Shown: in pieces, positions 50,638-64,000 of the stretch
How positions within the stretch are numbered: position 1 is the first letter of the stretch
Layout of the letters: the number at the start of each line of letters is the position of its first letter
NCBI GenBank assembly: GCA_947090765.1
Contig: OX352322.1
Coordinates: 1,383,501 to 1,447,500, forward strand
Origin: Pseudomonas sp. MM223
GTDB lineage: Bacteria; Pseudomonadota; Gammaproteobacteria; Pseudomonadales; Pseudomonadaceae
Length of the DNA stretch: 64,000 bases
Direction of reading: 5' to 3'
Position numbers and translations under genes: made by a program
Notes under the pieces: model-generated
Told to the model about the DNA's origin: nothing
The model's input: the letters and a program-made list of their open reading frames with translations, nothing else
Database searches by the model: none

Positions 50638-51279
50638 TCAGGGTTTGAATGCCCGCAAGAACACCCCCACCACCTCCCGCACATGCGCCTCGGCATCATC
50701 CCCCTCCAGCGGCCCCGCGCACCCCAGCAGTAGCCGATAATCCGGCGCGCCTTTCACCAGGCAGAAGAAATGCTCCGCCGCCCGCAGCGGGTTATCAATG
50801 CGCAACAGCCCGCGCTCATGCGCCCCGCGCAGCAGCGCTTCCATCCCGGCCAGCACACGCTTGGGCCCGGCTTCGTAGAAGTACTCGCCAAAGCTTGGGT
50901 CCTGGCTACCCTGGGCCATGATCAGTCGGCTGAGCTTCACCGCTTCGTCGCTGCTGATCAGTGCCTGGAAGCCGCGGGCAATGGTCAGCAGCACCTCGTC
51001 CACCGGCGCCCCTTCCGGGTACTCGAACAGCAGGTCGGGCAGCTGGATCTGGCAGGTGGCCATGACCGCCGAACAGAACAGGGTCTGCTTGTCGGTGAAG
51101 TGGCTGTACACGGTGAGCTTTGAAACACCTGCCGCCGCAGCGACCGCATCCATGCTGGTGTTGGCGTAACCAAGGCTGAGGAACAGGGCCTTGGCCGCTT
51201 CGAGAATCGCCTCACGCTTGACCAGGTCCTTTGGCCGGCCTGGGCCGATGGGTGCGTCGTTGGGCATTGTCGTCTGCAT
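50638..51279 (-). CDS. TetR/AcrR-family transcriptional regulator
   Basis: This 213-residue regulator has an N-terminal helix-turn-helix (about 20-65): REAILEAAKALFLSLGYANT, then SMDAVAAAAGVSKLTVYSHF. The C-terminal half resembles the AcrR/TetR_C-type dimer domain (PLRAAEHFFCLVKGAPDYRL). It is divergently placed from the monooxygenase-transporter cluster, so it could control that cluster, or be an old flank unrelated to it. An inverted repeat just upstream of its start is a candidate autoregulatory site. The effector is unknown. Confidence 0.9.
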   Translation of the reverse strand: MQTTMPNDAPIGPGRPKDLVKREAILEAAKALFLSLGYANTSMDAVAAAAGVSKLTVYSHFTDKQTLFCSAVMATCQIQLPDLLFEYPEGAPVDEVLLTIARGFQALISSDEAVKLSRLIMAQGSQDPSFGEYFYEAGPKRVLAGMEALLRGAHERGLLRIDNPLRAAEHFFCLVKGAPDYRLLLGCAGPLEGDDAEAHVREVVGVFLRAFKP

Positions 51280-51284
51280 CTGGT

Positions 51285-51303
51285 TTAAGAATCACCATCT
51301 TAA
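51285..51303. promoter_or_regulatory. Candidate TetR operator
   Basis: TTAAGA-ATCACCA-TCTTAA is a perfect 6-bp inverted repeat with a 7-base spacer, five bases upstream of the TetR start codon. The position suits autorepression, but this is inference. Confidence 0.45.
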
Positions 51304-51444
51304 CGGGTCAGGCGCGATCCGGCTAAAACCAGGTCACATTGCCTGCTGTCTGCCTGCGGACAGTTGATCGACAGTGATGTCGTCGTTCAGGCATCAGTGC
51401 TGTTTATGTGTTCAGTAAGTTACTGATTTATAACAATTATTTTA

Positions 51445-51461
51445 TTGGCATGAATCGTGTT
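51445..51461 (+). promoter_or_regulatory. Weak sigma-54-like -24/-12 element upstream of the DszA-like gene
   Basis: TTGGCATGAATCGTGTT matches the -24 box (TTGGCA) but has GT instead of GC at -12. It lies 56 bases upstream of the monooxygenase start in an AT-rich stretch. It is much weaker than the two other candidates in the cluster. Confidence 0.35.
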
Positions 51462-51517
51462 GATAAAGCTTCAAGGGCACCTGACAAAGGTGCCGAGCCT
51501 ATCGAACAGGAGTCACC

Positions 51518-52921
51518 ATGCCACGTGAAATTCGTTTGAACGCCTTCGAGATGAACTGTGTCGGCCACCAGTCACCCGGCCTGTGGCGGCACCCCAAGGA
51601 CCGTGCCTGGCAGTACAAGGACCTGGATTACTGGACCGACCTGGCCAAGCTGCTGGAGCGCGGCAAGTTCGACGGCATTTTCATCGCCGACGTGATCGGT
51701 ATCTACGATGTGCTGGGCGGCAATGGCGACGCGGCTATCCGCCAGGCAGCGCAGGTGCCGGTGAACGACCCACTGGCCGTGATCACACCCATGGCGCTGG
51801 TCACCGAACACCTCGGCTTCGGCCTGACCGCCTCGCTGACATTCGAGCACCCGTACCCGTTTGCCCGCCGCCTATCGACCCTGGATCACCTGACCAAGGG
51901 CCGCATCGGCTGGAACATCGTCACGTCCTACCTCGACAGCGGTGCGCGCAACCTGGGGCAAAAGGCGCTGAGTGACCATGACGCCCGTTACGACTACGCC
52001 GACGAGTACCTGGAGGTGCTGTACAAGCTGTTCGAGGGCAGTTGGGAAGACGGCGCGGTGGTGCGCGACCGCGAAACCGGGCTGTTCACCGACCCGCGCA
52101 AAGTCCACGAGATCCGCCATCAGGGCAAACACTTCCAGGTCCCGGGCATCCACCTGTGCGAACCGTCGCCGCAGCGCACACCGGTGTTGTACCAGGCCGG
52201 TGCGTCCAGCCGTGGCAAGAACTTCGCCGCTGGCCATGCCGAATGCGTGTTCGTCGCCGCGCCGTCCAAGGTCATTCTGAAAAAGACCGTGGCCGATATT
52301 CGCCGCCGCGCCGTCGAAGCCGGGCGCGACCCGCGCAAGGTGCTGATCTTCAACATGCAGACAGTGATCGTCGACGAAACCGACGCCAAGGCCCAGGCCA
52401 AATGGCAGGAATTGAAAAGCTACGCCAGCTACGAAGGCGCCCTGGCGTTGATTTCTGGCTGGACCGGTATCGACTTCAGCGAGTACCAGCCCGACCAGGT
52501 GCTGGAGCATATCCACACCAATGCCATCCAGTCGGCCGTGGAAGCGTTTTCCACCGCCGATCCGAACAAGCGGTGGACCGTGCAGGAACTGGCCGACTGG
52601 GTCGGCATTGGCGGCTTTGGCCCGCTGATTGTCGGCAGTGCGCAAACCGTGGCGGACGAACTGCAGGCCTGGGTTGAAGAAACCGATGTCGACGGCTTCA
52701 ACCTGACCTATGCCCTGGCCCACGAAACCTTCCGCGACGTGGTCGAACTGCTGGTGCCCGAGTTACAGCAACGTGGAGCCTACAAGACCGAGTACCGACC
52801 CGGCACCTTGCGCGAGAAGCTGTTCGGCGACGGCCCACGGCTGCCGGCCAGCCACCCGGCAGCCGGTTACCGCGACCTCAGCCGCCAGCCCACCCCGGCC
52901 AGCAATACCGAGCCGGCCTAA
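51518..52921 (+). CDS. Flavin-dependent monooxygenase, NtaA/SnaA/DszA family
   Basis: This 467-residue luciferase-like TIM-barrel enzyme uses reduced FMN from a partner reductase. Family motifs are LNAFEMNCVGHQSPGLWRHP, LLERGKFDGIFIADVIG, GRIGWNIVTSYLDSGARNLG and VLYQAGASSRGKNFAA. Characterised members oxidise dibenzothiophene sulfone (DszA), nitrilotriacetate (NtaA) or pristinamycin (SnaA). With an SfnB-like gene downstream, a carbon-sulfur-cleaving role is the best guess. No flavin reductase is in the window. It has an AGGAG start and precedes the transporter operon by 19 bases. Confidence 0.88.
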   Translation: MPREIRLNAFEMNCVGHQSPGLWRHPKDRAWQYKDLDYWTDLAKLLERGKFDGIFIADVIGIYDVLGGNGDAAIRQAAQVPVNDPLAVITPMALVTEHLGFGLTASLTFEHPYPFARRLSTLDHLTKGRIGWNIVTSYLDSGARNLGQKALSDHDARYDYADEYLEVLYKLFEGSWEDGAVVRDRETGLFTDPRKVHEIRHQGKHFQVPGIHLCEPSPQRTPVLYQAGASSRGKNFAAGHAECVFVAAPSKVILKKTVADIRRRAVEAGRDPRKVLIFNMQTVIVDETDAKAQAKWQELKSYASYEGALALISGWTGIDFSEYQPDQVLEHIHTNAIQSAVEAFSTADPNKRWTVQELADWVGIGGFGPLIVGSAQTVADELQAWVEETDVDGFNLTYALAHETFRDVVELLVPELQQRGAYKTEYRPGTLREKLFGDGPRLPASHPAAGYRDLSRQPTPASNTEPA

Positions 52922-52940
52922 GCCGACAGGGAGCCACGCG

Positions 52941-53903
52941 ATGAATGTGCATGAATTTACCCCGCCGCAGGCCGATGCTGTGAGCGACAGCCATCTGCAG
53001 GCCTTGCAGCGTTGGGCCAGGGAGCGGCCAACCCAAGTTGCCCTGCGCCATCGGCGCCTGGGCGCGTGGAAGGCCTGGCGCTGGATCGACGTGCAACGGG
53101 AGGTCGAGCGCCTGGCCGATGGCTTGAGCCAGCAGGGTTTCGTGGCTGGCTCACGGCTTGCCTTGAGCGGTGCCTACGAGCCCAGCCTGGTGTTGCTGGC
53201 GCTGGCTGCGCGCCGCCTGAATGGCCACACCCTGCTGATCCCCACCAATAGCCGTGGCGAGGAGCTGCAACGCCAGTTGCGTCTGGCCCACCCGGGTTTC
53301 GCGTTCGTCCAGCGCCGTGAACACGTGGCGCAATGGCTGCAAGCGGGCTTGCACGCGCACTGGCCGCTGCACCTGTTTACGCCGCAAGCCGATGCCGTGC
53401 TCACCGGCCAATGGCAGGTGCAGCCACTGTCGGTGCTGTTTGTGGGCGATGTTCCTGCACCGCAGCGCCATGGCTGGGCGCAGGTTGTCCGGGACGAGGT
53501 GCTGTGGGTTGATGAAGGCAGCGAATGGCGCGAAGGCCTGGCGCACCTGCTGGACCGCTGGCTCGAACAGGGTGAAGGCCTGGCGTTTCCGGAAACGGCC
53601 GAATCGGCCAGCCGGGACCGCCGTGAAATCGCCCCGACGGCGTTGCTGTTGTCTGCCGGGCGGGTACAGGCCCTGGCCGAAGAAATCGAGGCACGCCTGC
53701 CGCCGCCAGGCAGTTGGCAACGCCGGCTGTGCGACTGGGTACAGCAAGACCCGCAGCGCGGCCTGCGCCGCTGGCTGAAGGCCCGAGTACGGCACTTGCT
53801 CGGCTTCCAGCGACTGCAACGCATCGACGTGCCCAGCGCCCCTGCCACTTCGAGCACGGCACGGCCAGCCTGGCTGCGTGATTACCTGGAGCGTGCGGCA
53901 TGA
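52941..53903 (+). CDS. Half-length acyl-CoA-synthetase-like protein lacking the AMP-binding loop
   Basis: This 320-residue protein has an N-terminal 130 residues that look like a long-chain acyl-CoA synthetase (ALRHRRLGAWKAWRWIDVQR, then LADGLSQQGFVAGSRLALSG). The segment PGSWQRRLCDWVQQDPQRGL resembles a later synthetase region. The Ser/Thr/Gly-rich ATP loop, the adenylation motifs and the C-terminal domain are all missing, so catalysis is unlikely. Full-length synthetases commonly head LivGHMF-like operons. Its stop overlaps the ATPase start (ATGA). It may be a decayed enzyme or a retained binding module. Confidence 0.7.
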   Translation: MNVHEFTPPQADAVSDSHLQALQRWARERPTQVALRHRRLGAWKAWRWIDVQREVERLADGLSQQGFVAGSRLALSGAYEPSLVLLALAARRLNGHTLLIPTNSRGEELQRQLRLAHPGFAFVQRREHVAQWLQAGLHAHWPLHLFTPQADAVLTGQWQVQPLSVLFVGDVPAPQRHGWAQVVRDEVLWVDEGSEWREGLAHLLDRWLEQGEGLAFPETAESASRDRREIAPTALLLSAGRVQALAEEIEARLPPPGSWQRRLCDWVQQDPQRGLRRWLKARVRHLLGFQRLQRIDVPSAPATSSTARPAWLRDYLERAA

Positions 53904-54666
53904 GCGCTTTGCTGGAGGTGCGCAACGTGTCGCTGTCGTTCAAGGGCGTGAAAGCGATTTCCGATTTGTCGTTCAGCGTAAGGCGCGGGGAGATCTGCGC
54001 CCTGATCGGGCCCAATGGCGCGGGCAAAAGCTCGCTGCTGAACATTCTCAACGGTGTCTACCGCGCCGATGCCGGCCAACTGTTCTTCGCCGAACAACCG
54101 CTGCGCCGCCCGCACCCGTTGACCGCCGCGCGGCTGGGCATTGGCCGCACGTTCCAGAACAACGCGCTGTTCAAGAAGATGAGCGTGCTCGACAACCTGC
54201 TGACCGGGTTGTCGCGCTTTCAGCGCAGTTTCTTCCTGGAGCAGGCGCTGGGGCTGCCACGCGCCCGCCGAGAGGCGCGAGCCTTCACTGAACGTGCTGA
54301 ACAGGTGCTGGAGTTTCTTGAGTTACAGGCCTGGCGTGATGTGGCCGTCGGTAGCCTGCCTTACGGCCTGCAAAAACGCGTGGGCTGGGCCGGGCGCTGA
54401 TTGCCCAGCCGACGCTGTTGCTGCTCGACGAGCCCATGGCCGGGATGAACGCCGAAGAGAAGCAGGAAATGAGCCGCTTCATTGTCGACATCAACCGCGA
54501 CCTTGGCACCACGGTGATCCTGATCGAGCACGACATTCAGGTGGTGATGGGCCTGTCCAGCCATGTGGTGGTGCTGGACTACGGGCGCAAGGTGGGTGAC
54601 GGCTCACCGGCCGATGTGCAGGCCAACCCTGATGTAATCGCCGCGTACCTGGGGGCAGCGCACTGA
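53900..54666 (+). pseudogene. Branched-chain-type ABC transporter ATPase (LivG-like), frameshifted
   Basis: The first frame (53900-54400) has Walker A GPNGAGKSSLLNIL and the LivG Q-loop region GIGRTFQNNALFKKMSVLDN, then LPYGLQKRV, before running into a stop. The rest, with Walker B LLLLDEPMAGMNAEEK and the switch His in ILIEHDIQVVMG, is in the -1 frame and ends at 54666. One base missing near 54383-54386 (GTGGGCTGGG, expected GTGGAGCTGGG) would restore a 255-residue LivG protein. If real, it removes half of the transporter's ATPase pair. The downstream permease overlaps its stop (TGATG). A sequencing error is possible. Confidence 0.87.
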
Positions 54667-55547
54667 TGAACTTCTTCCTCGAAACCCTGATCGGCGGCCT
54701 GCTCGCCGGCACCATGTATTCGCTGGTGGCGATCGGCTTCGTGCTGATCTACAAGGCCAGCGGCGTGTTCAACTTCGCCCAGGGCGCCATGCTGCTGTTT
54801 GCCGCGCTGACTTTCGTCTGCCTGCACCAGCAAGGCCTGCCGTTTGCCGTGGCGCTGGCCATTACCGTTGTGGTGATGATCATCGGCGCGCTGCTGATCG
54901 AACGGTTGGTGCTGCGGCCCCTGGTCAACCGCTCGCAGATCACCTTGTTCATGGCCACGCTGGGCCTGTCGTTCATCATCGAAGGGCTCGCCCAAGGGCT
55001 GATGGGCGCGCAGGTGCGTGCACTGGACCTGGGCATCGAAGATGTGCCGCTGTTCGTCGGCGACATCATGATCAGCCAGTTCGACCTGGTGGCCGCTGGC
55101 GTTTCGGCCGCACTGGTGGCGCTGCTGGCGCTGCTGTTCAACCGCACTCGCATTGGTCTGGCCCTGCGGGCGGTGGCCGACGATACCCGCGCCGCGTTGT
55201 CGCTGGGCATCAACCTCAACCGTATCTGGCAGGTGGTATGGGCTGTGGCCGGCGTGGTCGGGCTGCTGGCCGGCCTGCTCTGGGGCGCACGCCAGGGTGT
55301 GCAGTTCTCGCTGTCGCTGGTGGTGCTCAAGGCTTTGCCGGTACTGATCATCGGCGGCTTCACCTCGATTGGCGGGGCGATTGTCGGTGGCTTGATCGTT
55401 GGGGCTGCGGAGAACCTGGCCGAGGCTTACATCGGGCCGCTGATCGGCGGTGGCATCACCCCTTGGTTCGCCTATTTCCTGGCGCTGATCTTCCTCTACA
55501 TCCGCCCCGCCGGCCTGTTCGGCGACCGGGCCATCGAACGGGTATGA
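54666..55547 (+). CDS. Branched-chain-type ABC transporter permease (LivH-like)
   Basis: This 293-residue inner-membrane permease has about eight hydrophobic helices, starting NFFLETLIGGLLAGTMYSLV. The motif AIGFVLIYKASGVFNFAQGA and the LivH loop ALRAVADDTRAALSLGINLN are diagnostic. It pairs with the LivM-like protein. The ATG shares one base with the preceding stop, so its translation depends on ribosomes completing the ATPase gene; the frameshift upstream might therefore be polar. The substrate cannot be read from the permease. Confidence 0.93.
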   Translation: MNFFLETLIGGLLAGTMYSLVAIGFVLIYKASGVFNFAQGAMLLFAALTFVCLHQQGLPFAVALAITVVVMIIGALLIERLVLRPLVNRSQITLFMATLGLSFIIEGLAQGLMGAQVRALDLGIEDVPLFVGDIMISQFDLVAAGVSAALVALLALLFNRTRIGLALRAVADDTRAALSLGINLNRIWQVVWAVAGVVGLLAGLLWGARQGVQFSLSLVVLKALPVLIIGGFTSIGGAIVGGLIVGAAENLAEAYIGPLIGGGITPWFAYFLALIFLYIRPAGLFGDRAIERV

Positions 55548-55551
55548 CTGC

Positions 55552-56616
55552 ATGATCACGACTGCCGCGCGCCTGACGGCGCGCTTTGACGATGCACCGC
55601 TGACCCTGGTGGCACGCCACCGTCCACTGGGTTTGGCACTGTTGCTGCTGGTGGCCTTTGTCGTGTTGCCTTGGCTGGGCAACGACTACTGGCTGAATGC
55701 GATCCTCATCCCGTTTCTGGTGTTGTCGCTGGCCGGTCTTGGCCTGAACTTGCTGACCGGCTATACCGGGCAAACCTCGGTGGGGGCGGCGGGCTTCATG
55801 GCGGTGGGGGCCTTTGCCACCTATGGCCTGCTGCTGCGCGTGCCGGGGCTGCCGTTGCCGCTGGCGCTGCTGGGCGGCGGCCTGATCGCCGGGCTGGTGG
55901 GGCTGTTGTTCGGCCTGCCGAGTTCGCGCATCAAGGGCTTCTACCTGATGGTGACTACCCTGGCTGCGCAGTTCTTCCTGGAGTGGGTGTTCGCCAAGTT
56001 CCCGTGGTTCTACAACTACGCCTCGTCCGGCACCATCAGCGCGCCGCGCCTGGAACTGTTCGGCCATAGCCTGGCCACGCCGGTGGGGCGCTACCTGCTG
56101 ACCCTCAGCTGCGTGGTGCTGCTGACCTGGGTGGCGCTGAACCTGGTGCGCAGCCAGGTGGGCCGCAACTGGATGGCGATCCGCGACATGGACACCGCCG
56201 CCGCAGTCATCGGCATCCAGGTGGAGCGCTACAAGCGTCTGGCCTTTGCCGTCAGCGCGTTCTACCTGGGCATTGCCGGGGCGTTGTGGGCCTTTGCCTA
56301 CCTGGGCACGGCCAGTGCCGGCAGCTTCGATATCAACCGTTCGTTCCAGATCCTGTTCATCATCATTATCGGCGGCATGGGCAGCATTGCCGGCAACTTC
56401 ATTGGCGCGGCCTTCATCAGCCTCACGCCGATCCTGCTCAGCCATGCCGGACAGTGGCTGTTCAACGGCCATGTCGATGCCGGGCAATTGCAGAACCTGC
56501 AGAAGATCCTGTTCGGCAGCCTGATCATCTGGTTCCTGATCAAGGAGCCGGAGGGCCTGGTGCGCCTGCTGGGCAACCTGCGCGAACGCATACGTGTCTG
56601 GCCGCTGCGCTTCTGA
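55552..56616 (+). CDS. Branched-chain-type ABC transporter permease (LivM-like)
   Basis: This 354-residue permease has a short cytoplasmic N-terminus and about nine hydrophobic segments. Motifs include GLNLLTGYTGQTSVGAAGFM, GFYLMVTTLAAQFFLEWVFA and RDMDTAAAVIGIQVERYKRL, the conserved LivM loop. It starts four bases after the LivH-like stop. With its partner it forms the membrane channel for a compound brought in by the two binding proteins downstream. Confidence 0.93.
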   Translation: MITTAARLTARFDDAPLTLVARHRPLGLALLLLVAFVVLPWLGNDYWLNAILIPFLVLSLAGLGLNLLTGYTGQTSVGAAGFMAVGAFATYGLLLRVPGLPLPLALLGGGLIAGLVGLLFGLPSSRIKGFYLMVTTLAAQFFLEWVFAKFPWFYNYASSGTISAPRLELFGHSLATPVGRYLLTLSCVVLLTWVALNLVRSQVGRNWMAIRDMDTAAAVIGIQVERYKRLAFAVSAFYLGIAGALWAFAYLGTASAGSFDINRSFQILFIIIIGGMGSIAGNFIGAAFISLTPILLSHAGQWLFNGHVDAGQLQNLQKILFGSLIIWFLIKEPEGLVRLLGNLRERIRVWPLRF

Positions 56617-56695
56617 CTCCAAACCAACACCTTCAGGCGCCTTGACCCGGCCACGGGAAAGGAGGTTTCAAACCCTTCACTTAAAAGAACCGAAC

Positions 56696-58036
56696 ATGCG
56701 TAAAACCTTGCGTCGCCACCTGCTCGCCAGCCTTTTCCTGCTGGGCGCGCCTCCCTTGCTGCCGGCTATTGCCGCCGCTGCCGACAACCAGCAATTCGTG
56801 CCCATGGCCACTTACCGGGTGGGCGCCTACGCCTCCAGCGGTATCCCGTGGTGGGCCGGTGAAATCGACTATTTCCGCTACATCAATGAGGTGGAGGGCG
56901 GCATCAACGGCGTCAAGCTCACCTGGCAGGAATGTGAGACCGAGTGGAACGTCGACCGCATCGTCGAGTGCTACGAGCGCTACAAGAATGGCCAGGACGG
57001 GGCGCCCACGGCGTTTTTCTTCACCCACAGCACGCCAGGCTCGTATGCCCTGATGGAGAAGGGCGCGGCCGACCGCATCCCGCTGATCGACGGCGCTGGC
57101 GGGCGTACCGAGTCCACTGACGGCAGCGTGTTCCCCTATGCCTTCCCGCTGTTGCTGAACTACTACGGCCAGGCGTCGGTGGGCATCAACTACATTGCCG
57201 GGCGCGAGGGCGGTTTCGACAAGCTCAAGGGCAAGAAGATCGTCACCGTGTACCACGACTCGGCCTATGGCCGCGAAACCCAGGCGCCCATGCAGCTGCT
57301 GGCGCAGAAGTACGGTTTCGAGAACATCCAGATCCCGGTGGCCGACCCGGGCAACGAGCAGTCGGCGCAGTGGCGCCAGGTGCGCCAGCTGAAGCCGGAC
57401 TGGGTGTTCCTACGCACCTGGGGTGTATCGACGCCGGTTGGCATCAAGACAGCGGCACGCTTCGGCATCCCGGTCGACCACATCATCGGCGACGTCTGGG
57501 CCGGCTCCGAGGCCGACGTAATCCCGGCCGGCAGCGCGGCCAAGGGCTACCAGGCCCTGGCGCCATTCCCTGGCGGCAGCAACTTCGCCATCCACCAGCG
57601 CCTGCGCCAGCACATCCTCGACACCGGCAAGAGCGACCTCAAGGACCCGAGCTACTTCGGCAAGGTGTACTACAACATCGGCCTGATCAATGCCGCCATC
57701 GCCGTCGAAGCGCTGCGCACGGCCCAGGCGAAGTTTGGCAACCGCCCGCTTAACGGAGAAGAAGCGCGCTGGGGCTTCGAACACCTGAACATCGACGCAA
57801 CACGGCTCAAGGCCATCGGTTTTGAAGGCTTGCTGCCGCCACTGAAGCTGTCGTGCTCGGACCACGAAGGCGGCGGTGCGGCGCGGGTGCAGCAGTGGGA
57901 CGGTGAGAAATGGGTGCTGGTGACCGACTGGGTGCAGGCCGACCGCGCCACCTTGCGCCCGCTGATCGAGGCCAAGTCGGCCGCCTACGCCAAGGAAAAA
58001 GGCATCACGCCGCGCGATTGCGCCAGCGAGCAGTGA
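56696..58036 (+). CDS. Periplasmic substrate-binding protein 1 of the LivGHMF-like transporter
   Basis: This 446-residue protein has a Sec signal (about 1-28, HLLASLFLLGAPPLLPAIAAA) and a type-1 periplasmic binding fold. Its mature start, FVPMATYRVGAYASSGIPWW, and KIVTVYHDSAYGRETQAPMQ are nearly identical to those of the next protein. It belongs to the Peripla_BP_6 group, which binds amino acids, amides, urea or aromatic acids. A perfect GGAGG at 56661-56665 lies too far upstream to serve the ATG, which has only a weak site. Confidence 0.92.
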   Translation: MRKTLRRHLLASLFLLGAPPLLPAIAAAADNQQFVPMATYRVGAYASSGIPWWAGEIDYFRYINEVEGGINGVKLTWQECETEWNVDRIVECYERYKNGQDGAPTAFFFTHSTPGSYALMEKGAADRIPLIDGAGGRTESTDGSVFPYAFPLLLNYYGQASVGINYIAGREGGFDKLKGKKIVTVYHDSAYGRETQAPMQLLAQKYGFENIQIPVADPGNEQSAQWRQVRQLKPDWVFLRTWGVSTPVGIKTAARFGIPVDHIIGDVWAGSEADVIPAGSAAKGYQALAPFPGGSNFAIHQRLRQHILDTGKSDLKDPSYFGKVYYNIGLINAAIAVEALRTAQAKFGNRPLNGEEARWGFEHLNIDATRLKAIGFEGLLPPLKLSCSDHEGGGAARVQQWDGEKWVLVTDWVQADRATLRPLIEAKSAAYAKEKGITPRDCASEQ

Positions 58037-58065
58037 ACACTCAACGACACTTCAGGGAAACCATC

Positions 58066-59415
58066 ATGTACGCACCTTTCAAACGCTACGGCGCCGCCCT
58101 CGGCCTTGCCATTAGCCTTGCCTCGGCATGGTTGCCGGTGGCCCAGGCCGCCAGCAATGAACAGTTCTTCCCGCTGGCCACCTACCGGGTTGGCGTTTAT
58201 GCCTCCAGCGGCATTCCGGTATGGGCCGGGATGATCGACTACTTGCGCTACATCAACGAAGTCGAAGGCGGCATCAATGGCGTCAAGCTGGTCTGGCAGG
58301 AGTGCGAAACCGAGTGGACGGCCGAGAAGGGCATCGAGTGCTACGAGCGCTTCAAAAACGGCCTGAACGGCGCACCGGTGGCCTTGTATCAGCCTAACGG
58401 CGCGCCGGCCGCCTACACCCTGGCGGAAAAGGCCGAGGCCGACAAGATCCCGCTGATCACCTTGGGCTATGGCCGCACCGAAGCCACCGATGGCCGGGTG
58501 TTCCCCTATAACTTCCCGGTGATGCTGACCTTCTACAGCGAGGCCTCGGCGTTCATCAACTACGTGGCCGAGCGCGAAGGCGGGCTGGACAAGCTCAAGG
58601 GCAAGAAGATCGCCACCGTCTACCACGACTCCGCCTACGGCCGCGAAACCCAGGGGCCGATGGCGTTGCTGGCGCAGAAATACGGTTTCGAGAATATTCA
58701 GATTCCGGTAGCCGACCCGGGCAACGAGCAGGCCGGGCAATGGCGCCAGGTGCGCCAACAGAAGCCGGACTGGGTGTTCCTGCGCACCTGGGGTGTGTCC
58801 ACGCCTGTGGCGATCAAGACAGCGGCGCGCTTCGGCTTCCCGGTGGATCGCATTGTCGGCGACATCTGGGCCAGTTCCAACGAAGACGTGTTGCCGGCGG
58901 GTGAAGCCGGCAAGGGCTACCTGGCGTTGACGCCGTACCCGGGCGGCGCCGATTTCGACATTCACGAGCGCATCCGCAAGTACATCGTCGACACAGGCAA
59001 GAGCGACCTCAAAGACCCGAAAAGCTTTGGCAGCGTGTACTACAACTCGGGCCTTGTGAACGCGGCCATCGCCGTGGAGGCAATCCGCGCCGGGCAGAAG
59101 AAGTTCGGCAACCGCCCACTCACGGGTGAGGAAGGGCGCTGGGGCCTGGAGCACCTGGACTTGGGCGATGTCCGTCTGAAGGAAATCGGCTTCCTCGGCC
59201 TGATGCAGCCGCTGAAGCTGTCGTGCAGCGACCACGAAGGCGGGGGCGCGGCCAAAGTACAGCAGTGGGATGGCCAGAAGTGGACGCTGATGACTGACTG
59301 GGTACAGGCCGACCGCGCCACCCTGCGGCCGCTGATCGATGCCAAGGCAGGTGAGTTTGCCCGCGAGAAAGGCGTTACCCCTCGCGAATGCGCGAAAGAC
59401 GAGGTTGGCCCATGA
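58066..59415 (+). CDS. Periplasmic substrate-binding protein 2 (tandem paralogue)
   Basis: This 449-residue protein has a signal peptide (about 1-29, LGLAISLASAWLPVAQAA) and a mature part that aligns end to end with the preceding protein (GFENIQIPVADPGNEQ and the tail LSCSDHEGGGAAKVQQWDG are shared). Differences cluster in the ligand cleft region (for example APVALYQPNGAPAAYTLAEK here versus PTAFFFTHSTPGSYALMEKG). It starts 29 bases after the first and overlaps the second ATPase by ATGA. The pair widens or tunes the ligand range. Confidence 0.93.
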   Translation: MYAPFKRYGAALGLAISLASAWLPVAQAASNEQFFPLATYRVGVYASSGIPVWAGMIDYLRYINEVEGGINGVKLVWQECETEWTAEKGIECYERFKNGLNGAPVALYQPNGAPAAYTLAEKAEADKIPLITLGYGRTEATDGRVFPYNFPVMLTFYSEASAFINYVAEREGGLDKLKGKKIATVYHDSAYGRETQGPMALLAQKYGFENIQIPVADPGNEQAGQWRQVRQQKPDWVFLRTWGVSTPVAIKTAARFGFPVDRIVGDIWASSNEDVLPAGEAGKGYLALTPYPGGADFDIHERIRKYIVDTGKSDLKDPKSFGSVYYNSGLVNAAIAVEAIRAGQKKFGNRPLTGEEGRWGLEHLDLGDVRLKEIGFLGLMQPLKLSCSDHEGGGAAKVQQWDGQKWTLMTDWVQADRATLRPLIDAKAGEFAREKGVTPRECAKDEVGP

Positions 59416-60188
59416 CCCACGCCCCGCTTGCTGCCGAGCACGCCAAGGAGTTGCTGGGTGTACAGGATATCGAAGTGATCTACGACGGTGCGATCCTGGC
59501 CGTGGCCGGGGTTTCCCTACGGGTCGGGCAGGGCGACATCGTCGCCTTGCTGGGCGCCAACGGGGCTGGCAAAAGCACCACGCTCAAGGCCATTTCCGGG
59601 TTGCTGCAAGCCGACCGTGCGCGGGTGAGCCGTGGGCACATCCGCTTCCTGGGCCAGGGCACCGCAGGCATTGCGGCCAACCGGCTGGCGGCTCAGGGCA
59701 TTGTGCATGTGCTGGAGGGGCGACACGTGTTCGCCCACCTCACCATCGAGGAGAACCTGCGCACCGGGGGCTTCTTGCGCAAGCCGGCGCGACACGAACT
59801 GGAGCAGGCGCTGGAGCGTATCTACGCCTGGTTTCCGCGGCTGAAGACCAAGCGCAAGACCCAGGCCGGGCTGACCTCGGGCGGTGAGCAGCAGATGCTG
59901 GCCATCGGCCGCGCGCTGATGACCCAGCCGCGGCTGGTGCTGTTGGACGAGCCTTCGATGGGGCTGGCGCCGATCATCGTCGAGGAAATCTTCGACATCG
60001 TCGCCCAGCTCAATGCCAAGGAGGGCATGAGCTTTCTGGTGGCTGAGCAGAACATCAACGTTGCCCTGCGCCATGCCGACTATGCCTACATTCTGGAGAA
60101 CGGCCGGGTGGCGGGTGAGGGCGCTGCTGCCGAGCTGGCTGCGCGCGAAGACCTGCGGCATTTCTACCTGGGGGGCAAGGCTGGTTGA
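59412..60188 (+). CDS. Branched-chain-type ABC transporter ATPase (LivF-like)
   Basis: This 258-residue ATPase has Walker A ALLGANGAGKSTTLKAISG, LivF-type HVLEGRHVFAHLTIEENL, a signature read as TSGGEQQMLAIGRAL, Walker B LVLLDEPSMGLAP and the switch region SFLVAEQNINVALRHADYAY. It is intact, unlike the LivG-like partner. The ATG at 59412 overlaps the binding-protein stop; a longer upstream frame is not needed. It is the last gene before a 309-base gap that holds a REP pair and an AT-rich promoter region. Confidence 0.94.
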   Translation: MTHAPLAAEHAKELLGVQDIEVIYDGAILAVAGVSLRVGQGDIVALLGANGAGKSTTLKAISGLLQADRARVSRGHIRFLGQGTAGIAANRLAAQGIVHVLEGRHVFAHLTIEENLRTGGFLRKPARHELEQALERIYAWFPRLKTKRKTQAGLTSGGEQQMLAIGRALMTQPRLVLLDEPSMGLAPIIVEEIFDIVAQLNAKEGMSFLVAEQNINVALRHADYAYILENGRVAGEGAAAELAAREDLRHFYLGGKAG

Positions 60189-60195
60189 TAGATCC

Positions 60196-60320
60196 TGGGG
60201 GCTGCGTTGCAGCCCTTTCGCGACACAAGGCCGCTCCCACAGGCACTGCGCATAGCCTGAAACTGGTGCAGTACCTGTGGGAGCGGCCTTGTGTCGCGAA
60301 AGGGGCGCGCAGCGCCCCCA
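60196..60320. repeat. Paired inverted REP element (AAGGCCGCTCCCAC family)
   Basis: CTTTCGCGACACAAGGCCGC and its reverse complement face each other, with inner stems of GGGGGCTGCGTTGCAGCCC type. It fills the first half of the 309-base gap between the LivF-like and porin genes and probably ends the transporter transcript. Confidence 0.93.
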
Positions 60321-60425
60321 GAAGTGTTGTATCGCACGCAACAGCAACTGAACAATTTGCCTCTGAAGAACATCCAAGTAATTTCATGAATTAATATAAG
60401 TATTTGAAATATATGGATTTTATTG

Positions 60426-60442
60426 GTGGCACGGTTATTGGA
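60426..60442 (+). promoter_or_regulatory. Candidate sigma-54 (-24/-12) promoter of the OprD-like porin gene
   Basis: GTGGCACGGTTATTGGA carries the full TGGCACG -24 core and TTG at -12, with the correct spacing of the two boxes (GG at -12 rather than GC). An AT-rich tract at 60378-60425 sits directly upstream, as expected for IHF or activator loops. It lies 56 bases before the porin start. Confidence 0.65.
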
Positions 60443-60497
60443 ATAGCAGAGCATCCCCGCCCCGGCGGGGTTATCCAACTCAAAAGGACGTTCTGCC

Positions 60498-61841
60498 ATG
60501 CGCTCGCGCAATTACCCACCCGTCACCCTTGCCTTGGCCATCGGCCTGGCCGCCCCTGCATTCGCCGAAGATGAAGGTTTCCTCGACGGCACTCAGTTGC
60601 AAATCATCAACCGTAATTATTTCTTCAGCCAGGACTACCGCAACGGCGATTTCACTCGTAACCCCAACACCGGCGAACGGCAGAGCCAGCACCGCGAATG
60701 GGGCCACGGGATCATCGCCAACCTGCAGTCAGGGTTTACCCAGGGTACAGTCGGCCTGGGCATGGACGTACAAGGCCTGGTCGGCCTGAAGCTCGACGGC
60801 GGAAATGGCACGGTGGGAAATGGCGTGGGCGTACCAGGCATCGTCTCGCGCTCGGGCAGCAACTTCGATGGCGAGCCCAAGGACGCCTACGGCAAGGTCG
60901 GTGTTGCGCTGAAGGCCCGCGTGCTGGATACCGAACTGCGCTACGGCGATGTCAGCCCAACCAGCCCGGTGTTGCATGCCAGTGACATCCGTCTGTTGCC
61001 GCAGACCCTGCGCGGCTTCATGTTCAACGACCACTCGCTGCAAGGCCTGAGCTTGCAGGGCGGCAAGCTGGAGTCCAGCAGCGACCGCAATGCCAGCAAC
61101 CACCGGGGCGACCTTGGCACCGTGTACGCCGGGCGGTTGAAGGGCGCCAATGATGTGATGTACCTGGGCGGCGACTACCGCCTCAACGACCAGCTGAACC
61201 TGCGCTTGCACGCCAGCCGCCTGGACGATGTGTGGAACCAGCAGTTCTTCAACGTCGACTACGTGCAGCCGCTAGGCGACAGCCTGGCCCTGAAGACCGG
61301 CCTGGATTACTACCGCACCCGCGACAGCGGCCAGGCGCTGGCCGGCAAGATCGACAACGATTCCTGGAGCGTGCATGCCGGCATCAATGCAGGCGGGCAT
61401 GGCTTCAAGCTGTCGTATACGCGCATCGACGGCGACACACCGTTCGATTACGTGTGGAACACCTACGACATCCAACTGGACGCGGCATCGCAGGTATCCG
61501 ATTTCAACAACCCCAACGAACGGGCCTGGGAAGCGCGCTACGACTACAACTTTGCCGTGCTCGGCCTGCCTGGGCTGTCGCTCACCGCCCGCTATGTGCG
61601 CGGCAGCGATATCGACGGTACCCGCGCCGGTGGTGCCTACAGCTACTACAACGGTATCGAGGATGGTCGCCATTGGGAGCGCAACCTGTGGGTGCGTTAC
61701 GTGGTGCAGGGCGGGCCGGCCAAGAACCTGTCGTTCAACGTGATGCAGGCCACCCACCGGGTGGGCGGGGGGCATACCGCCGAGGCCAACGTCGATGAAC
61801 TGCGGGTAATCGTCGAGTACCCGCTGGACATCAGCCTTTGA
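60498..61841 (+). CDS. OprD-family outer-membrane porin
   Basis: This 447-residue protein has a Sec signal (about 1-23, PVTLALAIGLAAPAFA). The mature part starts EGFLDGTQLQIINRNYFFSQ, the OprD beta-barrel opening, with DYRNG and REWGHGIIANLQSGFTQGTV. Later barrel features (YDYNFAVLGLPGLSLTARYV) and the terminal LRVIVEYPLDISL are typical. Such porins admit specific small acids, amino acids or aromatics. It is encoded between the ABC importer and the sfnB-like gene and likely serves the same substrate. The preceding sigma-54-like promoter suggests separate transcription. Confidence 0.93.
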   Translation: MRSRNYPPVTLALAIGLAAPAFAEDEGFLDGTQLQIINRNYFFSQDYRNGDFTRNPNTGERQSQHREWGHGIIANLQSGFTQGTVGLGMDVQGLVGLKLDGGNGTVGNGVGVPGIVSRSGSNFDGEPKDAYGKVGVALKARVLDTELRYGDVSPTSPVLHASDIRLLPQTLRGFMFNDHSLQGLSLQGGKLESSSDRNASNHRGDLGTVYAGRLKGANDVMYLGGDYRLNDQLNLRLHASRLDDVWNQQFFNVDYVQPLGDSLALKTGLDYYRTRDSGQALAGKIDNDSWSVHAGINAGGHGFKLSYTRIDGDTPFDYVWNTYDIQLDAASQVSDFNNPNERAWEARYDYNFAVLGLPGLSLTARYVRGSDIDGTRAGGAYSYYNGIEDGRHWERNLWVRYVVQGGPAKNLSFNVMQATHRVGGGHTAEANVDELRVIVEYPLDISL

Positions 61842-61955
61842 GTGGTCCCGGCCAACTGTTGGCCGGGCAACAGGCAATCTGCAGTTTGTCGGTCTCAAGG
61901 CTTTCCGAATGATCAATATTTTATCTAACAGTCTGAATTTAAAGGCTTTATCAGA

Positions 61956-61972
61956 TTGGCACAGGTTCTGCT
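61956..61972 (+). promoter_or_regulatory. Candidate sigma-54 (-24/-12) promoter of the sfnB-like gene
   Basis: TTGGCACAGGTTCTGCT matches the consensus TTGGCAC-N5-TTGCT at all but two positions, including both invariant GG and GC pairs at the right spacing. It lies 36 bases before the ATG. SfnR-type sulfur-starvation genes in P. putida are known to use sigma-54. Confidence 0.78.
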
Positions 61973-62008
61973 GAACAGCTGTGGAACCCGTTACGCATGG
62001 AGCTGCAC

Positions 62009-63244
62009 ATGACGACCCTTTCACCCGTATCCAGCCTGCCCCCGCAGGCCCGTTCGGCGCCACGGCGCGCCGCCCATGTCATCCGCAGTGATGCCGAAGC
62101 CATCGAAGTCGCCCAGCGTCTGGCCGAGGACTTTGCCCAGGATGCGGCTTTGCGTGACCGTGAGCGGCGTTTACCGTGGGATGAACTTGATCGCTTTTCC
62201 GACAGTGGCCTGTGGGCGATCACCGTGCCCAAGGAGTTTGGCGGCGCGGGCGTGTCCTATGCCACCCTCAGTGAAGTGATTGCAACCATCTCGGCGGCCG
62301 ATTCGTCCCTCGGGCAGTTGCCGCAAAACCACTTTGGTGTGCTCAGCAACCTGCGCCTGACCGGCAGCGAAACGCAAAAGCGCGACTACTTCTCCAAGGT
62401 GCTGCAGGGCTACCGTTTCGGCAATGCCTTTTCCGAATCGCGCGGCCAGTACGTGACCACCTTCCAGACGCAAATCCGCGTCACTGGCGCCAGCGCCGTG
62501 ATCGACGGCGAGAAGGCGTACTGCACCGGTGCCCTGTTTGCCCATATCGTTCCTGTTGCCGGCGTTGATGAAGAGGGGCGACCGCATATTGCCTTTGTTC
62601 CTCGCGATGCCGCAGGCCTGACCGTGATCGACAGCTGGGACGGCTTCGGCCAGCGCATCACCGCCAGTGGCCAGGTGCGCCTCGACGGCGTGCAGGTACC
62701 GGCGGCCGATGTGATACCGGCCTGGAAGGCCTACGACCAGCCCACGGCTGATGGCCCGATCTCGCAGATTATCCAGGCCGCAGTCGATACCGGTATCGCC
62801 CGTGGCGCCTTCGCAGCAACCTTGCAGGTGGCCCGCCAGGCACGGCCGTGGGCCGACAGCGGCCTGCAACATGGCTGGCAGGACCCGCTCAGTCAGGCAC
62901 TGATTGGCGAACTGGCCTGGCGCCTGCAAGCGGCCGAAGCCCTCCTGCGCCGTGCTGCGCAGGCCGTGGACCTAGCGGTTGCCCAGCCTGACGAAGAGCA
63001 TGTGGCGCAGGCCTCGGTGGTGGTCGGCCAGGCCAAGGTGCTGTCCACGGCCATTTCGCTGGAGGCGTCCAGCCGCCTGCTGGAACTGGGTGGCACGCGC
63101 AGTGTGTCGGCCAGCCAGGGGCTGGACCGTTTCTGGCGCAATGCCCGCACCCACACCCTGCATGACCCGGTGCGCTGGAAGTACCACTTGGTCGGCAATC
63201 AACTGCTCAACGGCATCAAGCCGCAACGTCACGCCTGGAACTGA
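62009..63244 (+). CDS. SfnB-family acyl-CoA-dehydrogenase-like sulfur-acquisition oxidoreductase
   Basis: This 411-residue flavoprotein of the acyl-CoA dehydrogenase fold is closest to SfnB, a component of dimethyl sulfone/sulfonate use under sulfur limitation in P. putida. Visible are ITVPKEFGGAGVSYATLSEV, FGNAFSESRGQYVTTFQTQI (flavin region) and the C-terminal GLDRFWRNARTHTLHDPVRW, shared by DszC/SfnB-type monooxygenases. The ATG at 62009 has GGAG six bases upstream; an ATG at 61997 overlaps that site. It is preceded by a strong sigma-54-like sequence. Its exact reaction is unproven. Confidence 0.88.
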   Translation: MTTLSPVSSLPPQARSAPRRAAHVIRSDAEAIEVAQRLAEDFAQDAALRDRERRLPWDELDRFSDSGLWAITVPKEFGGAGVSYATLSEVIATISAADSSLGQLPQNHFGVLSNLRLTGSETQKRDYFSKVLQGYRFGNAFSESRGQYVTTFQTQIRVTGASAVIDGEKAYCTGALFAHIVPVAGVDEEGRPHIAFVPRDAAGLTVIDSWDGFGQRITASGQVRLDGVQVPAADVIPAWKAYDQPTADGPISQIIQAAVDTGIARGAFAATLQVARQARPWADSGLQHGWQDPLSQALIGELAWRLQAAEALLRRAAQAVDLAVAQPDEEHVAQASVVVGQAKVLSTAISLEASSRLLELGGTRSVSASQGLDRFWRNARTHTLHDPVRWKYHLVGNQLLNGIKPQRHAWN

Positions 63245-63254
63245 GGAGGCGCAC

Positions 63255-63632
63255 ATGTCCAATATCCATTCCCATGGCCGGGGCGACCTGGCACATGCCC
63301 GTGAGGTCGAGGCGGCCTTGCTTGAATACTTGCGTGTGCACAGTGCCCGCCATGAAACCTTGGTGATTGCCACGGTGGGGGAGGTGCGCATTGCTATTGA
63401 TGCTGCCGATGCATTGCTGGAGCAGGCAGATGATTCGCAGGCATCGGCGATTGCTTTTCGCTTGGCGGCTGCTGAAGGGGCTCGGCTGGCCGGTGAGGCT
63501 TACTTCGAGTTGGCCGGTCGCAGCCTGGCACGGCCTGAGGTGAGTGGTGGTGAGCCGGTGCTGGCGACCCAGAGGCGGTTGCTGGGGGACCATTACCTCA
63601 ATGGTGCGGCGTTGGCCGACGGCCTGGACTAG
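63255..63632 (+). CDS. Small protein following the sfnB-like gene
   Basis: This 125-residue, Ala/Glu/Leu-rich, probably all-helical protein has a GAGGAGG start. Its middle, AAEGARLAGEAYFELAGRSL, and end, RRLLGDHYLNGAALADGL, weakly recall the C-terminal part of acyl-CoA-dehydrogenase-type enzymes (compare VGNQLLNGIKP in the gene before it). It could be a detached domain or an unrelated accessory protein. It is ten bases after the sfnB-like stop and surely cotranscribed. Not recognised. Confidence 0.65.
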   Translation: MSNIHSHGRGDLAHAREVEAALLEYLRVHSARHETLVIATVGEVRIAIDAADALLEQADDSQASAIAFRLAAAEGARLAGEAYFELAGRSLARPEVSGGEPVLATQRRLLGDHYLNGAALADGLD

Positions 63633-63646
63633 CCGCTGATAGTGCC

Positions 63647-63764
63647 GGGGCCGCTTTGCGGCCCATCGCCGGCAAGCCAGCTCCCACGGGGGATGTGCAG
63701 GTCTTCAGTGATGCGCGGTCCCTGTGGGAGCTGGCTTGCCGGCGATGGGCTGCGCAGCAGCCCC
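63647..63764. repeat. Paired inverted REP element (GCCGGCAAGCCAGCTCCCAC family)
   Basis: CATCGCCGGCAAGCCAGCTCCCAC faces GTGGGAGCTGGCTTGCCGGCGATG. The outer arms, GGGGCCGCTTTGCGGCCC and GGGCTGCGCAGCAGCCCC, are of the type seen in the other REP family, so the element looks hybrid. It separates two convergent genes. Confidence 0.92.
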
Positions 63765-63775
63765 GATGCGGTTAT

Positions 63776-64000
63776 TCAGGATTGCTTGGCACCCCCACCA
63801 ATCTGCCATACATACGGTGGTTCAACACCGTTCACGTGCCAGTCGCCAATGATCCGCTCCTTGTAGATTACCGGGTTGTGCGAAGCCGCCGTGCGGGCAT
63901 TGCGCCAGTGGCGGTCGAGCTGGCGGCTGGTGCTGGTGGTGGATGCACCCAGGGCATTGAACAGGTCGCTGGTGGCGCGCAGCACCAGGTCGATGGCCGC
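63776..64000 (-). CDS. Acyl-CoA-dehydrogenase/SfnB-like enzyme, C-terminal fragment
   Basis: Only the last 74 codons are visible; the gene runs off the right edge. It reads AAIDLVLRATSDLFNALGAS, then RQLDRHWRNARTAASHNPVI and RIIGDWHVNGVEPPY. This is the tail of DszC/SfnB-type flavin monooxygenases or acyl-CoA dehydrogenases (compare RFWRNARTHTLHDP in the sfnB-like gene). A second enzyme of the same family so close by supports a sulfur-compound oxidation locus continuing beyond the window. Confidence 0.82.
   Translation of the reverse strand, partial: AAIDLVLRATSDLFNALGASTTSTSRQLDRHWRNARTAASHNPVIYKERIIGDWHVNGVEPPYVWQIGGGAKQS

Follow-up and report, generated by a model that had tools for sequence, protein, structure and literature searches.

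The 64,000-nucleotide stretch of Pseudomonas sp. MM223 analysed here (positions 1383501-1447500 of the 6.73-Mb genome; hereafter the window) carries, from 51.5 kb onward on the plus strand, a gene locus that is most probably an organosulfur import-and-oxidation unit of the SfnR/sigma-54 sulfate-starvation regulon. In order, the locus encodes an LLM flavin monooxygenase (LLM), a 320-residue half-length relative of acyl-CoA synthetases (half-synthetase), LivG, LivH, LivM, the binding proteins SBP1 and SBP2, LivF, the porin OprD, SfnB and a 125-residue protein (Table 1). SBP1 is 99% identical in the closest named locus, which belongs to a Pseudomonas putida strain. An initial annotation of this DNA had proposed both the organosulfur function and the SfnR/sigma-54 control; both are supported by the gene neighbourhoods, by the phylogeny and by a promoter signature that the locus has in common with sfnG and msuE.

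Matches to SBP1 at E<=1e-60 were present in 111 of 398 genomes of the genus, and 60 Pseudomonas neighbourhoods were fetched. The 15 loci of clade A, the window among them, have their genes arranged as in the window, and 13 of them carry SfnB and the small gene downstream. Two members that were annotated in more detail, L048 and L050, continue with amidohydrolase-like, msuD/ssuD-like, sigma-54 enhancer-binding protein (SfnR-like), msuC-like and msuE-like genes. In clade B (16 loci), SfnB and LLM precede the half-synthetase and the importer, which are followed in L074 by a FAD-NAD(P)-binding protein. The cassette of clade C lies directly behind sfnG in 10 of 20 loci; L100, for instance, has an msuE-type reductase, sfnG, half-synthetase, LivG, LivH, LivM, SBP and LivF in this order, and on the other strand an enhancer-binding protein, an msuC-like gene and msuE. 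A PF04909 amidohydrolase-like gene adjoins the msuD/ssuD-like gene in L100 (13898-14749), L048 and L050. Beyond the genus, the five alpha-proteobacterial plasmid cassettes that were viewed consist of LLM, LivG-LivH-LivM, SBP, LivF and an SfnB-like gene, with the synthetase absent. The pairing of a LivGHMF-type importer with sulfur genes, singled out earlier as notable, is real but not peculiar to this locus, since related cassettes occur in sfnG operons and beside DmoA-like/SfnB-like genes in alpha-, beta- and gamma-proteobacteria. The own genome holds a cluster of msuE, msuC-like and SfnR-like genes elsewhere. Because of the sfnG linkage, the first candidate substrate of the clade-C branch is plausibly dimethyl sulfone or a compound next to it in the pathway; in clades A and B, our guess would be a thioether, a sulfoxide or a sulfone.

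The sigma-54-like boxes reported earlier upstream of LLM, oprD and sfnB proved correct in position, but boxes of this kind are not more numerous than expected by chance (17 found versus 19.5 expected; with a second pattern 13 versus 7.9, a count reached in 7 of 100 shuffles), and the -12 element is imperfect at the LLM and OprD boxes. Scanning 300-bp upstream regions with loose weights led to saturation (LLM 33/36 versus 28.1 expected); the count was set aside and only the alignment by position retained. It is only through an upstream element and its conservation that the boxes carry weight. In the aligned upstream regions, the boxes lie at the same place in relatives and are accompanied ~100 bp upstream by a second conserved block of 29 bp, which resembles the sfnF/sfnG and msuE promoters. 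A weight matrix built from 16 promoter elements of sfnF, sfnG and msuE (taken from other loci and from the own-genome msuE) was run over both strands of the 64 kb and ranked the window promoters first, second and fourth, the third hit being an antisense overlap of the first. The scores were 27.8 for sfnB, 20.8 for LLM and 13.9 for oprD, compared to best scores of 11.0-20.0 in six shuffled windows.

Element and box were then joined into one pattern, loosened until the three window sites were included. Genome-wide, it matched at seven sites, versus none for the reversed pattern, with an element-to-box spacing of 100-103 bp. Each of the seven immediately precedes one gene: LLM, oprD or sfnB of this locus, the second sfnB-like gene, sfnG, msuE or an SfnB paralogue. 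The paired signature is found in 53 of 99 Pseudomonas genomes (own included), with about 115 matches, a few of which look like one repeated coding stretch, versus 1 for the reversed control. Under a stricter positional test, it was present in clade A at 14/15 LLM, 13/13 SfnB and 4/4 OprD promoters and in 0/434 coding slices. The SfnB promoters of clade B bear it in 8 of the 8 testable loci, scored around the real start (extrapolated starts gave 0/8), the other 8 of the 16 loci being cut too short; among the named loci it occurs in 11 of 12. The clade-B LLM genes, which sit inside an operon, have no signature of their own (0/16). Altogether, the putative membership of the locus in the SfnR/sigma-54 sulfur regulon is supported by an element plus box arranged as at sfnG and msuE, with the oprD element weak by the matrix alone.

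The importer comprises relatives of LivH, LivM and LivF together with two binding proteins, as the initial annotation had read it; both binding proteins belong to the Peripla_BP_6 family. The initial annotation had also called the LivGHMF set entire, which does not hold for livG, whose frame closes at 54400 after 166 residues with the remainder in another frame. All components miss the NCBIfam equivalog cut-offs for branched-chain amino acid LivGHMF (LivH 77 versus 379, LivM 94 versus 366, LivF 225 versus 441 and the first piece of LivG 115 versus 362 bits). No Ssu or Tau family was among the matches listed for LivH, LivM and the binding proteins, and the only PDB entries found with the binding-protein profile were 4ru0, 3lkb and 4n03, none of which names a ligand. 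In 10 of the first 20 neighbourhoods, SBP1 stands as an orphan without a Liv importer. Orphans of this kind (L055, L056, L059-L066) are 82-87% identical and in several loci lie beside two ATPase genes of another ATP-binding cassette (ABC) transporter; in L065, one neighbour is a Nik/Dpp-type permease.

The comparison of importers covered 131 related LivH copies, gathered through binding-protein similarity and not through sulfur genes; as the copies are related, the counts are not independent. The livG gene is in one piece in 121 of these cassettes, split or partial in five (the window, L014, L016, L069 and L148.1, the last at a contig edge) and unmatched by our distance rule in another five, four of which do have LivG matches. 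In three cassettes it is split between two frames (window 53900-54663, L014:9195-9951 and L016:9108-9871); in all three the break falls at about codons 161-174, shortly after the ABC signature region, and L069 retains only the last part of the gene. These splits may stem from recurrent loss, from sequencing problems or from another cause. The frame break probably impairs the importer of this strain, unless it is a sequencing error. A less probable reading is that the locus belongs to the sulfur regulon but performs no import here, the oxygenases and the porin acting on a substrate that enters otherwise. The break itself and the split or mostly missing livG of L014, L016 and L069 fit such a loss; on the other side, one such break in a genome assembly could be an error, and the remaining genes of the locus are all open and constrained.

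The acyl-CoA-synthetase-like gene, earlier described as a remnant, is instead a conserved half-length gene (about 300-390 residues) under purifying selection. The 131 cassettes comprise 18 with a full synthetase, 92 with a half, 19 with none and 2 that are truncated. A sulfur oxygenase is found within 8 kb of 0/18 full, 77/92 half and 19/19 synthetase-free cassettes (96/111 for half or none taken together), and the promoter signature lies within 6-7 kb of 0/18, 70/92 and 0/19, respectively. A 77-row LivH tree sets the full-synthetase clade apart from the rest at 95/100; L206.2, a very long branch, lies across that division, so that the full/not-full label needs two changes, and L208, cut by a contig end, is unlabelled. 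The tree was rooted on the full-synthetase group, which makes the direction of change an inference.

The synthetase-like genes of 30 of the 110 cassettes possessing one (8 full-length and 22 half proteins, window included) were aligned for their motifs. The TSGTT-type ATP loop and the YGQTE/YGSTE-type motif are present in 8/8 full-length and 0/22 half proteins; among the latter, those of clade C have a degenerate ATP loop, and those of clades A and B have lost it by deletion. The half-synthetase is apparently non-catalytic. Its ratio of nonsynonymous to synonymous substitutions (dN/dS) is 0.09-0.45 in 8 pairs, compared to 0.01-0.09 for LLM. Two SfnB values (1.58 and 1.82; window versus L048 and L049) were discarded, as they conflict with 86-88% protein identity. 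Of 7998 candidates scored in a protein search, whose length window left out full-length synthetases, 318 were homologues. The fold is predicted with confidence, at a predicted local distance difference test (pLDDT) score of 84.8 and a predicted template modelling score of 0.83, and it resembles that of adenylate-forming enzymes, isolated N-terminal domains among them (best E 1e-10).

We tentatively suggest that this Liv branch shifted from acyl-CoA-synthetase-coupled uptake to sulfur scavenging, and that the synthetase was cut to a folded half without ATP-binding motifs, which selection would have kept as a working part of the importer, such as a subunit or a ligand-handling or gating partner of LivG/LivM; the 125-residue SfnB-tail protein would be a second "half-enzyme" that accompanies SfnB. 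Alternatively, the importer might still carry a carboxylate or an amino acid, the presumed cargo of Liv-type systems that have an acyl-CoA synthetase, and merely lie beside sulfur genes, with the half-synthetase a decaying leftover. The nearest outside relatives of the importer, with full synthetase and no sulfur genes, would suit such a transporter, as would the faster evolution of the half protein relative to its neighbours and the 9 of 20 clade-C cassettes that have no sfnG or msuC/ssuD-like genes in the 17 kb fetched. We nevertheless consider it unlikely, since the half protein is still constrained, recurs in 92 cassettes and has a confident predicted fold, and since the cassettes hold sulfur neighbours or the sulfur promoter signature across distant hosts.

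The LLM enzyme passes the NtaA/DmoA family TIGR03860 (576 bits, cut-off 279.7). The earlier label of a DszA/NtaA-type monooxygenase needs correction for DszA: the closest PDB relatives are DmoA (6ak1, 561 bits) and LadA (516), ahead of DszA (260) and YtnJ (CmoJ; 223). It is highly improbable that LLM oxidizes alkanes, like LadA, or some other non-sulfur substrate and that the locus serves carbon use, the close LadA score being outweighed by an SfnB above its family cut-off in the same locus and by the promoter signature common to the locus, sfnG and msuE. Sixteen of 17 checked binding residues of DmoA (from the first part of the list in PMC9259527) are identical in LLM, which is suggestive only for a dimethyl sulfide monooxygenase activity. 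LLM enzymes 82-83% identical to that of the window are found in Pantoea and Klebsiella plasmid records (L010:11989-13398 and L011:11989-13395), where the surrounding cluster is another one, made up of a sigma-54-dependent regulator, ssuD, a FAD-dependent oxidoreductase and major facilitator superfamily or Met-type ABC genes. In addition, the own genome has a second DmoA-like/SfnB module (L129, 286000-303000), with an LLM of 53% and two SfnB-like genes of 51-52% identity, flanked by ABC ATPase genes.

The remaining products bear out the initial annotation, which had named an OprD porin, an SfnB-like enzyme, a small partner gene and a further DszC/SfnB-like tail. The porin and SfnB match their families (Table 1). 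The tail belongs to a second SfnB-like gene on the minus strand, which is complete beyond the window (63776-65017, read from L009) and falls below the TIGR04022 cut-off (271.6 versus 430.9). The small gene encodes the 125-residue protein, which is predicted to form a helical bundle and whose 19 homologues are, where an organism is named, all from Pseudomonas. Its identity as an SfnB tail rests on the profile comparison with the C-terminal part of SfnB-type enzymes; in a fold search, the matches to TdsC and acyl-CoA dehydrogenases all had E above 0.1.

Compared to the sfn/msu system of Pseudomonas for dimethyl sulfone and methanesulfonate (sfnFG, sfnAB, sfnR and msuEDC), the locus has an SfnB over the family cut-off, the same signature as the own-genome sfnG and msuE, and relatives whose importer and half-synthetase directly follow sfnG (in the 10 clade-C loci). 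By contrast, the window locus has no sfnG or flavin mononucleotide (FMN) reductase, has a DmoA-like enzyme instead, and adds OprD and a second binding protein. A legend of PMC8234197 mentions ABC transporters within the P. putida sfn operon. DmoA and LadA are the best solved relatives of LLM; however, the locus has no reductase partner, and it has an importer, hardly needed for a gas such as dimethyl sulfide. In the DszABC and CmoO/CmoJ-type pathways, S-oxygenation is followed by C-S cleavage by an LLM enzyme, much as proposed here; nevertheless, LLM scores low with DszA and YtnJ, no DszB is among the assigned genes, and transport differs. This succession of steps is given in PMC10863075. The full-synthetase Liv importers of Zoogloea, Aromatoleum, Denitromonas and others share the order synthetase-LivG-LivH-LivM-SBP-LivF and a binding protein about 50% identical, but have a whole synthetase with both motifs, no nearby sulfur oxygenases and no signature. 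The SsuABC and TauABC transporters supply an LLM desulfonating monooxygenase during sulfur limitation; the importer of the locus is of a different transporter family. A literature search, with most subscription papers outside its reach, found no paper on a Liv-type sulfur importer or a half-synthetase, and nothing useful on KT2440 transporter loci or sulfone transporters; PP_2767-2771 of KT2440 presumably encode a transporter of this kind. The 29-bp element may already be described in the original SfnR studies, which lie outside that reach.

On this basis, we propose that sulfur limitation would induce the locus, with an SfnR-type enhancer-binding protein, encoded elsewhere, acting at the 29-bp elements ~100 bp upstream of the sigma-54 promoters of LLM, oprD and sfnB. 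From the respective families, OprD would admit the substrate, the binding proteins would pass it to the LivHMGF-type ABC importer, SfnB would add oxygen at the sulfur, and the DmoA-like LLM would cleave the C-S bond using reduced FMN from MsuE made elsewhere. The last point is suggested because, in work on Acinetobacter baylyi, one MsuE supplies all pathway monooxygenases (PMC13352529). Together, these steps make up the route from outer membrane to C-S cleavage that we infer in common with the initial annotation. The importer itself would represent a sulfur-linked branch of the Liv family, which keeps the conserved half of the synthetase or none, the other branch being encoded with the full enzyme.

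Several points weigh against the assignment to organosulfur import and oxidation under SfnR/sigma-54 control. It is built on gene content, conservation, co-occurrence and the promoter signature, and livG is broken in this strain. The oprD element alone scores within chance, and that of LLM barely above the shuffles. Four of the seven genomic sites (the three of the window and the own msuE) shaped the pattern, leaving the second sfnB-like gene, sfnG and the SfnB paralogue as independent sites. The signature is absent near all 19 synthetase-free cassettes, which therefore must be controlled otherwise. Moreover, around 15 of the 92 half-synthetase cassettes the flanking 8 kb contain no sulfur oxygenase; yet 12 of these 15 carry the signature and may be solitary regulon members. 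Among the 15 are L087, L088, L090, L091, L093, L095, L096 and L097. Finally, the names SfnR and MsuC for neighbour genes rest on size and context and not on a family cut-off.

Table 1. Features of the putative organosulfur locus (positions within the window)
Feature	Position	Strand	Evidence and remarks
29-bp upstream element of LLM operon promoter (putatively SfnR-type)	51346..51374	+	matrix rank 2 in window; kept with box in 14/15 clade-A loci
Sigma-54-like box of LLM operon, imperfect -12 element	51445..51461	+	aligned upstream regions
LLM flavin monooxygenase, NtaA/DmoA family	51518..52921	+	TIGR03860 576 bits; DmoA 6ak1 561 bits
Half-length acyl-CoA-synthetase-like protein, 320 residues, without ATP loop and YGQTE-type motif	52941..53903	+	alignment, dN/dS, predicted fold
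LivG-like ATPase, first piece; frame ends at 54400	53900..54400	+	profile match
LivG-like ATPase, rest in another frame	54385..54663	+	two pieces searched separately, not joined
LivH-like permease	54666..55547	+	profile match
LivM-like permease	55552..56616	+	profile match
Binding protein SBP1 (Peripla_BP_6)	56696..58036	+	best solved relative 4ru0, 716 bits
Binding protein SBP2 (Peripla_BP_6)	58066..59415	+	start codon chosen by inspection
LivF-like ATPase	59412..60188	+	start uncertain, frame open from 59388
29-bp upstream element of oprD	60327..60355	+	matrix rank 4, score inside shuffle range; kept with box in 4/4 clade-A loci having oprD
Sigma-54-like box of oprD, imperfect -12 element	60426..60442	+	aligned upstream regions
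OprD-family porin	60498..61841	+	PF03573 483 bits
29-bp upstream element of sfnB	61856..61884	+	matrix rank 1 in window; 13/13 clade-A loci with sfnB
Sigma-54-like box of sfnB	61956..61972	+	aligned upstream regions
SfnB-family flavin monooxygenase, acyl-CoA dehydrogenase fold	61997..63244	+	TIGR04022 614.2 bits, cut-off 430.9
125-residue protein resembling C-terminal part of SfnB-type enzymes	63255..63632	+	hhalign probability 96.8, E 2e-10
Second SfnB-like gene, continues to 65017 outside window, own promoter signature further out	63776..64000	-	TIGR04022 271.6 bits

Two flanking elements were set apart from the locus. The TetR gene at 50638-51279, considered as a regulator of the locus, is probably no part of the system, as, of the 60 Pseudomonas neighbourhoods, L047 alone has it next to the locus; otherwise it occurs in the named locus L133. 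After the second SfnB-like gene, a resistance-nodulation-division (RND) efflux adaptor and permease follow (L009:3779-7975), with no sign of belonging to the sulfur locus.

Altogether, the locus names a candidate importer class for organosulfur compounds, which in the sfnG-linked branch would plausibly carry dimethyl sulfone itself, and the paired promoter signature may offer a way to read the SfnR-type regulon off Pseudomonas genomes. The most novel element of the locus is the half-synthetase, a conserved pseudo-synthetase with a putative role in transport.

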